A program made the translations under genes and the position numbers. Source: an uncultured Opitutia bacterium (GTDB taxonomy: Bacteria > Verrucomicrobiota > Verrucomicrobiia > Opitutales > Puniceicoccaceae). Taken from it: a stretch of DNA of 58,936 nucleotides. This document shows, in pieces, positions 44,129 to 45,839 of this stretch. Location: NCBI GenBank assembly GCA_913056175.1, contig CAJXLM010000013.1:1-58936 (forward strand), given 5' to 3'. Below the pieces are notes generated by a model. It did no database searches and was not told the DNA's origin. It saw nothing but the letters and a program-made list of their open reading frames with translations. The first letter of the stretch is position 1, and every line of letters begins with the position of its first letter.

Positions 44129-45024
44129 GGGTCCTGGTGCTCGGTGCCTCCGGACTGGTCGGTGCTGCCGTCGCCACAGCGGCCCGCGACCGCGGGCACA
44201 CGGTGAGCGCCTGGGGCGGGGCCACGCCCGACGCGCTCCCCCCGGGCTGCGACCGGGCGGTGGATCTGGGAAGCGGGGAAGGACTCGAGGCTCTCGTCGC
44301 CGGGGAGGCACCCGATGCGCTCGTCAATGCGGCCGCAGTCAGCCATCCCGCCGGCGTCGAGGCGGATCCGGAGGGGAGCTGGCGGTTGAATGTGGACCTG
44401 CCCGGCCAACTCGCCGATGGGGCGCGGCGTTGGGGAATTCCCTTGGTGCAGTTCTCCTCGGACATGGTCTTTCCCGGCGGCGGGCAGGACTTCTCCCCGT
44501 CCGACCCGCCGGCCCCGCTCCACCCCTACGGCGAGCAGAAACGGGCCGCCGAGCAGCGGGTGGCCGAGCTGCACCCCGGCGGCTCCCTCGTCCTGCGGAT
44601 CACTCTCGTCAACGGCAACAGCCCGCGCGGCCGACGCAGTGTGCACGAGAAACTCCTCGCGGCGATTGCCGCAGGCGAGCGACCCCGGCTCTTCCGGGAC
44701 GAGATTCGTCAGCCCTGCGCGGCCGGCCGGGTGGGGGAGGTCGTGGCCCGGCTTCTCGAAACCGGGGCAGCCTCGGGGATCTACCACTGGGGCGGTGCCG
44801 AGACGATCAGCCGGTACGAACTCGGGAGACGCATCCTCGCTCGCTTTGGACTGTCGCTGGATCGGGTGGAGCCGGCGGAACTCCCTCCCGGTCGACCCGG
44901 AAGGCTTGTTCTCGGGGACGGGGGGCTCGGTCTCCGCTTGGGCTTGGGAGCGAGTACGGTCGAGGAACAGTTGGCGGTGCTTCGCCAGCCCCCCCGGCTC
45001 TGGGAAGGGGGAGAGGCCAGGTAG
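44125..45024 (+). CDS. Extended SDR, dTDP-4-dehydrorhamnose reductase (RmlD)-like
   Basis: A 299-residue NAD(P)-dependent reductase. The cofactor motif is VLGASGLVG (about 5-13), the catalytic triad is suggested by SSDMVF and YGEQKRAAE (Tyr-x3-Lys), and VNAAAVSHPAGVEADP matches the RmlD/SDR_a35 group. It may make a deoxysugar donor for the neighbouring glycosyltransferases, though some relatives have other sugar substrates. Its stop is 20 bases from the T run of the leftward terminator at 45044-45080. Confidence 0.8.
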   Translation: MRVLVLGASGLVGAAVATAARDRGHTVSAWGGATPDALPPGCDRAVDLGSGEGLEALVAGEAPDALVNAAAVSHPAGVEADPEGSWRLNVDLPGQLADGARRWGIPLVQFSSDMVFPGGGQDFSPSDPPAPLHPYGEQKRAAEQRVAELHPGGSLVLRITLVNGNSPRGRRSVHEKLLAAIAAGERPRLFRDEIRQPCAAGRVGEVVARLLETGAASGIYHWGGAETISRYELGRRILARFGLSLDRVEPAELPPGRPGRLVLGDGGLGLRLGLGASTVEEQLAVLRQPPRLWEGGEAR

Positions 45025-45043: not shown

Positions 45044-45080
45044 AAAAAAAGGGGCGCGGCCTACCCCTAAGCCGCGCCCC
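45044..45080 (-). terminator. Leftward intrinsic terminator with no known gene upstream of it
   Basis: Arms 45051-45060 (GGGGCGCGGC) and 45071-45080 pair perfectly over 10 bp. Read leftward the stem is followed by seven T (45044-45050). The rightward side has only a scattered T-rich tail, so the geometry points to a leftward transcript arriving from 45081-45350. It may additionally act on the rightward reductase gene. Confidence 0.75.
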
Positions 45081-45262
45081 TAGTTGCTTTCTGCTTTGTT
45101 GTTACCCCAATCTCCCTATGGGAGAAAGTCGTTATGCCGAGGAATGTGCGCCCCTCAGCGCGGTTTCGCAAGCGAAAATCGCCAAATCCCCCCAAATTTT
45201 TTCCGGGAGCGTTCCCGTGCCTTTTTTTGGCTAGGAGCCCTGACCCCGGGCTGAGGGTGCGT
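45051..45262 (-). ncRNA. Candidate structured non-coding RNA
   Basis: Read leftward, the gene-free gap 45025-45353 folds into a regular pattern. An 11-bp helix (CGC, bulged A, CCCTCAGC at about 45262-45251, pairing with GCTGAGGGGCG at about 45158-45148) closes a domain. That domain holds a CGGGA/TCCCG hairpin (45204-45217) and a TTTCGC/GCGAAA hairpin (about 45163-45177) extended by GCG/CGC. Outside lies a TCTCCC-ATA-GGGAGA hairpin (45111-45125), then the terminator. No ribosome site or protein frame fits. I see no tmRNA, RNase P, SRP or 6S signature. The 5' end is unknown and the opposite strand could fold similarly. Confidence 0.4.
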
Positions 45263-45353
45263 TGACAGCCTACCTGGTTTCCGCAGGCTGGTCGAGTGGT
45301 AGGAGGTGGTTTTCCCGCCGACTTTGCAGCCTTTTTCCTCGTTCCCGCGTCTC

Positions 45354-45839
45354 ATGGAATCACCGGAGTCACCCGATCCCCGCCCCGCGAAGGTTTTCCT
45401 CACCAAGGTGATTGGCGGCAAAGCATTCCATGCGGAGATGGCCAAGGCGGAAACGTCCCCGGAGCTTCTGGAGGGCGAGGGCTACGCGCTGCTCGAGGAG
45501 GGTGAGGATCTCGGCCGGGTACGGCGCCGGATCACGGTGGAGTGCCCGGTGTGCGGGTGCAGCCAAGAGCGTTTCGAGCAATCGGGCCGCTTCGGGTGTC
45601 CCCAGTGCTACCACTCGTTCGGTGGACTCGTGCAGGGGATTCTCCAACGCATGCACAGCGGGCTGCAACATGTCGGGAAGATCCCCGCCGGCCAGAAGAC
45701 GGAGGAGGTCGCGGCAGCCCGGCGGACCCACCTCGAGGAGGAACTCGAGCAGGCCATTGAGCGCGAGGACTACGAGGAAGCGGCGCGCCTGCGGGACGAA
45801 ATCCGGCTCTGGACGGCTTCGCCCGAAAGTGGCCCGTGA
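45354..45839 (+). CDS. McsA-like zinc-finger and UVR-domain protein
   Basis: A 161-residue soluble protein. Two CxxC pairs (CPVC 64-67 and CPQC 82-85) form a zinc finger, followed by CYHSFGGLVQGILQRMHSG, HVGKIPAG and a C-terminal UVR coiled segment (about 127-155, LEEELEQAIEREDYEEAARL). This is the layout of McsA, the activator of the McsB arginine kinase that marks proteins for ClpC. No mcsB, ctsR or clpC is next to it. The ATG at 45354 was chosen so that the family-like LTKVIGGKAF region is near the start. Its TGA overlaps the next gene's GTG. Confidence 0.85.
   Translation: MESPESPDPRPAKVFLTKVIGGKAFHAEMAKAETSPELLEGEGYALLEEGEDLGRVRRRITVECPVCGCSQERFEQSGRFGCPQCYHSFGGLVQGILQRMHSGLQHVGKIPAGQKTEEVAAARRTHLEEELEQAIEREDYEEAARLRDEIRLWTASPESGP

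Follow-up and report, generated by a model that had tools for sequence, protein, structure and literature searches.

A small non-coding RNA, independently transcribed from the minus strand and equipped with its own promoter and terminator, very probably lies in the gap between an RmlD-like and an McsA-like gene of the window (the whole stretch of 58,936 nucleotides analysed here), as judged from homology, fold and promoter signals (Table 1). Based on covariance and Rfam searches, it is a new RNA family, outside Rfam 15, that is found across the order Opitutales. We propose that this order-wide small RNA would pair in trans, independently of Hfq, through a duplicated GGGGUA motif, and put the probability of this statement as a whole at about 0.5.

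The RNA gene and its fold

The preliminary description of this locus had noted a gene-free gap with rightward genes on both sides, and indeed no convincing gene was found from the RmlD-like stop codon (45024) to the mcsA-like ATG (45354). A covariance model matched the minus strand at 45132-45041 with an E value of 5.7e-16. The start of the RNA was set from the promoter spacing, and the resulting 93-nt RNA folds with −42.1 kcal/mol (z = −6.0); none of 200 shuffled sequences was equally stable. It ends as intrinsic terminators do, with a GC-rich hairpin followed by a T-tract, and this ending is kept in homologues. The leftward terminator ending in seven T had been noted correctly from the outset (stem 45081-45050, 14 pairs, 4-base loop), and the broader claim of a new structured RNA that carries such a terminator is upheld by homologues, compensatory change, a positioned promoter signal and the lack of an Rfam match. 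A rightward RNA was rejected: there is no T-tract on that side, and the terminator of the homologues is on the leftward strand.

Table 1 Features of the RNA locus (positions in the window)
Feature	Position	Strand	Basis or remark
RmlD-like gene	stop at 45024	+	PF04321
Small RNA gene, predicted transcript of ~93 nt	45136..45044	-	covariance match, fold, promoter spacing
Terminator T-tract, seven T	45044..45050	-	read from sequence
Terminator hairpin, 14 pairs, GGGG tetraloop	45050..45081	-	compensatory changes across 110 distinct homologous rows
Loop motif UUAGGGGUAG (second GGGGUA)	45061..45070	-	GGGG in 105/105 copies
A-rich linker with AAAGCAGAAA	45082..45100	-	kept across the order
Unpaired motif UUGGGGUAAC (first GGGGUA; motif 1)	45101..45110	-	conserved
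5' hairpin UCUCCC-AUA-GGGAGA	45111..45125	-	fold and covariation
Predicted -10 element CACATT (weak)	45143..45148	-	inferred from 17-nt spacing to -35
Predicted -35 element TTGCGA	45166..45171	-	CTTGC kept in four same-family genomes
TTGACA, likely -35 of the divergent mcsA-like gene, outside the RNA	45262..45267	+	kept in four same-family genomes
McsA-like gene (UvrB/UvrC motif protein), divergent from the RNA	45354..45839	+	PF02151; ATG at 45354

The RNA gene is smaller and differently built than first proposed. Its far end lies near 45136 and not at 45275, and an 11-bp long-range helix, said to close a domain of hairpins, was rejected as a structure. The letters of this helix are present (45148-45159 with 45250-45261, where a bulge separates 8 pairs from 3), but no stem in this stretch runs for more than 8 pairs without interruption, a length that 115 of 200 shuffles also reached, and the arms have no conserved counterpart in the three same-family genomes. 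The left arm is inside the promoter spacer of the RNA, upstream of its predicted start, and the right arm is beside the -35 element of mcsA. The architecture of a closed domain is therefore not supported.

Distribution and covariation of the RNA family

A DNA search with the 330-base gap in 87 genomes, the window's own and those of relatives, gave significant matches to its left third only, with 70-86% identity over ~50-95 bases in some 20 genomes; read on the minus strand, these matches form one family. A first covariance model (R1), built from 19 copies (alignment A1), matched 111 of 177 Opitutales genomes in 59 of 76 genera. Each of these genomes has 1 to 6 copies, and that of the window has a single one. 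Outside the order, R1 gave no match above chance among 236 genomes sampled from the class and 289 from the phylum, and within the order it did not find the RNA in the families of ~1-Mb genomes. With a second model (R2), built from 105 copies, 71 of the ~74 same-order genomes in the class sample were positive, and outside the order there were three weak matches among ~310 genomes, whose E values of 0.004-0.01 equal the chance expectation. Low-score antisense matches were also seen, which is due to the palindromic nature of the terminator. Copies occur in tandem as well, and in some of these the linker that joins motif 1 to the terminator holds an additional hairpin (L010:1272-1383, L015:1705-1815, L133, L141:1298-1380 and L150:1741-1830).

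The absence of compensatory changes in homologues had been named beforehand as the finding that would speak against the RNA; strong changes are present. In an alignment of 110 distinct rows, which was fitted to the terminator helix, standard pairs make up 98.7% of the cells of the terminator stem, and 286 two-sided changes are spread such that 11 of the 13 pairs changed on both sides. When the partner was slid by 1-3 columns as a control, pairing fell to 31-45%. The same pattern (9 of 13 pairs) was seen in the first alignment, A1, which had not been fitted. While the stem changes freely, the GGGG in its loop is invariant in all 105 parsed copies, and such a combination is an unusual signature. 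At motif 1, 91 of the 101 parsed copies have GGGGUA. For the 5' hairpin, 58 distinct stems were counted that differ in length and register, so that a one-register alignment across all copies fails. In a sub-alignment with a single register, 6 of 7 pairs have two-sided changes; since its sequences were picked for register, this covariation is supporting and not independent evidence.

An Rfam 15 search of the window gave no family at or above the curated gathering score; the best match below it was CssrB, whose 22.9 bits fall short of its cut-off of 76, and the loci of 20 relatives yielded a neighbouring tRNA only. Known Rfam families (tmRNA, RNase P, SRP, 6S, 6C and others) were rejected accordingly, in line with the first impression from the sequence that tmRNA, RNase P, SRP and 6S do not fit. 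Full-text searches, limited to open-licence papers, retrieved no report of this RNA and no described small RNA in Opitutales.

Predicted promoters of the RNA and its paralogues

A consensus promoter scan of the window did not report the -10 element CACATT. Comparison of the four same-family genomes shows that CTTGC and the start region are conserved and that the spacer varies freely. A general sigma-70 consensus scan of the copies was barely distinct from shuffles, but a positional test does separate the two: 68 of 105 copies have CTTGC, TTGAC or CTTGA at 50-100 nt ahead of motif 1, compared with 12.9 in shuffles. The distance of this -35-like word to motif 1 is mostly 60-80 nt, and A- and T-runs accumulate just upstream.

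It is suggestive that some paralogues are under predicted sigma-54-like or ECF-like promoters. TTGGCAC-type, sigma-54-like boxes with at most two mismatches precede 6 copies (0.3 expected), and ECF-type boxes (GGAAC/GAAAC-N15/16-CGTC) with at most one mismatch precede 9 copies (0.8 expected); the copies are related, so both counts overstate independence. RpoN is present in 70 of 79 genomes. The copy in the window has no TTGGCAC-N-TTGCA box of the sigma-54 type. The ECF-type box lies upstream of a subset of copies that adjoin PhoH (L025, L106, L114, L119, L124 and L127), suggesting that these may be under stress control. Within one family of genomes (L010, L015, L138, L140, L141, L150 and L133), tandem siblings differ in the sequence upstream: TTGGCAC-N-TGTTATA or a similar sigma-54-like box precedes one of them, a sigma-70-like -35 element the other.

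Proposed mode of action, alternatives and related systems

According to the proposed mechanism, transcription would begin at the minus-strand promoter near 45136 and stop at the intrinsic terminator of the RNA. The RNA would then act in trans by base pairing, offering its two copies of GGGGUA, one unpaired and one in the terminator loop, to C-rich sites (UACCCC) in several mRNAs. Paralogues controlled by different sigma factors would respond to distinct signals. We consider the odds of the GGGGUA base-pairing mechanism to be about even. Hfq was found in none of 35 Opitutales genomes (controls were positive); any pairing must therefore be independent of Hfq, and an Hfq-dependent small RNA was rejected. 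CsrA was not found in the family of the window (G000-G003) and is present in 9 of 31 genomes of the order. Given the lack of Hfq in all genomes examined and the patchy presence of CsrA, this order must rely on other proteins for post-transcriptional control.

A first, simple search for targets gave no signal: UACCCC is not enriched near ~530 predicted start codons in two 400-kb samples from two member genomes. Whole-genome 10-mer counts of the seed complement were also tried and are confounded, since the pattern contains stop codons. A GGGG tetraloop is short for a seed, which counts against pairing, and a protein-binding RNA, too, could have duplicated, invariant motifs of this kind. In the sample from one genome (G023; L175-L194), CC is often found before predicted starts, with CCATG at 64 of 278, and CCCCAT occurs near starts 7 times compared with 2.4 expected, the predicted starts being crude. 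This may point to an uncommon mode of translation initiation, or the RNA may have its target sites there.

Two explanations do without an RNA that acts in trans, and both are highly improbable. The stem could be a bidirectional or stray terminator of the neighbouring genes that yields no RNA product; it does stand directly after the RmlD-like gene, but the T-tract is solely on the leftward side, conservation extends over ~55 nt upstream of the stem and to the promoter-like element, and termination would not require the invariant loop. Alternatively, the element could be a cis-regulatory leader or a mobile repeat of mcsA or another neighbour. An McsA-like gene is indeed the divergent neighbour in 13 loci, but the RNA is on the strand opposite to mcsA with its terminator pointing away from it, and a single copy in the genome of the window is unlike a mobile repeat. 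Moreover, the neighbours differ by clade, which speaks against both explanations and fits an independent, trans-acting RNA gene: a GcvT/YgfZ-like gene is divergent from the RNA in 14 loci, 10 of which also have DAHP synthase downstream, and DciA is found in 10 and PhoH in 6. The genome of the window has two McsA-like paralogues, the one in the window and another at G000:C32:24630-25061; the former, next to the RNA, has diverged further, and it is also the paralogue found in relatives that share the synteny. A scan of named genomes with the McsA protein returned two planctomycete loci only and was of no help.

If the RNA gene is accepted, its partner may be something other than an mRNA. The two GGGGUA could be sites of an RNA-binding protein that is sequestered in the manner of CsrB or RsmZ. 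A 6-base motif shown twice beside hairpins and nearly invariant across the order, the tandem and multiple copies per genome and the negative target-site test all speak for such titration, but the motif is not GGA-based, CsrA is ruled out as the partner for the genome of the window, and we know of no candidate protein for GGGGUA. Titration is the main alternative to pairing, with the chances rather against it; a CsrB-like decoy of CsrA itself was rejected, as CsrA was not found in the family of the window. It is improbable that the RNA acts on a general machine, either the anti-Shine-Dalgarno end of the ribosome or, like 6S RNA, the RNA polymerase. Its near-ubiquity in the order would fit, and ACCUC at the 3' end of 16S rRNA offers GGGGU a partner if one G-U wobble is allowed (letters read by eye), but this pairing would be weak, and GGAGG near the predicted starts of the G023 sample is no commoner than in shuffles. 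The fold, moreover, has no long bulged hairpin as in 6S, and no Rfam match to 6S was found.

Comparison with known systems places the RNA near several of them without identity to any. 6C RNA and the cuckoo-type RNAs are clade-wide and have two copies of a short homopolymer motif in C-rich loops; the Opitutales RNA, too, is a clade-wide family with a doubled motif, but its motif is G-rich. With CsrB and RsmZ it shares a repeated short motif at hairpins and thus a possible way of working, but the motif is GGGGUA instead of a GGA core. Qrr are sigma-54-dependent small RNA siblings, and in Opitutales, too, there are several sibling copies per genome, some with predicted TTGGCAC-type promoter boxes; unlike the Qrr case, no Hfq was found in Opitutales, and the two have no sequence relation. 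The RNA sX13 of Xanthomonas exposes CCCC loops to G-rich sites and works without Hfq (PMC3771888). Like sX13 and other Hfq-independent RNAs with C-rich loops, the Opitutales RNA has short, stable hairpins and a 4-base homopolymer motif; Hfq is not needed by sX13 and was not found in Opitutales. The GGGG of the Opitutales RNA and the CCCC of sX13 are complementary letters, with no sequence relation shown, and unlike sX13 it has one motif unpaired and one in the terminator loop. By analogy, base pairing through GGGGUA would mirror the mechanism of the sX13-type, Hfq-independent C-loop RNAs.

Tentatively, and with somewhat less confidence than in the mechanism itself, we suggest that the family may be an order-wide, Hfq-independent G-seed regulator, with paralogues brought separately under housekeeping, ECF and sigma-54 promoters, or, just as well, a decoy of an undescribed GGGG-binding protein in Verrucomicrobiota. 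In the former case, one G-rich seed would sit in the tetraloop of the terminator, and G-rich would replace C-rich. This conserved, order-wide RNA is a concrete handle on the control of mRNAs in bacteria in which no Hfq was found.
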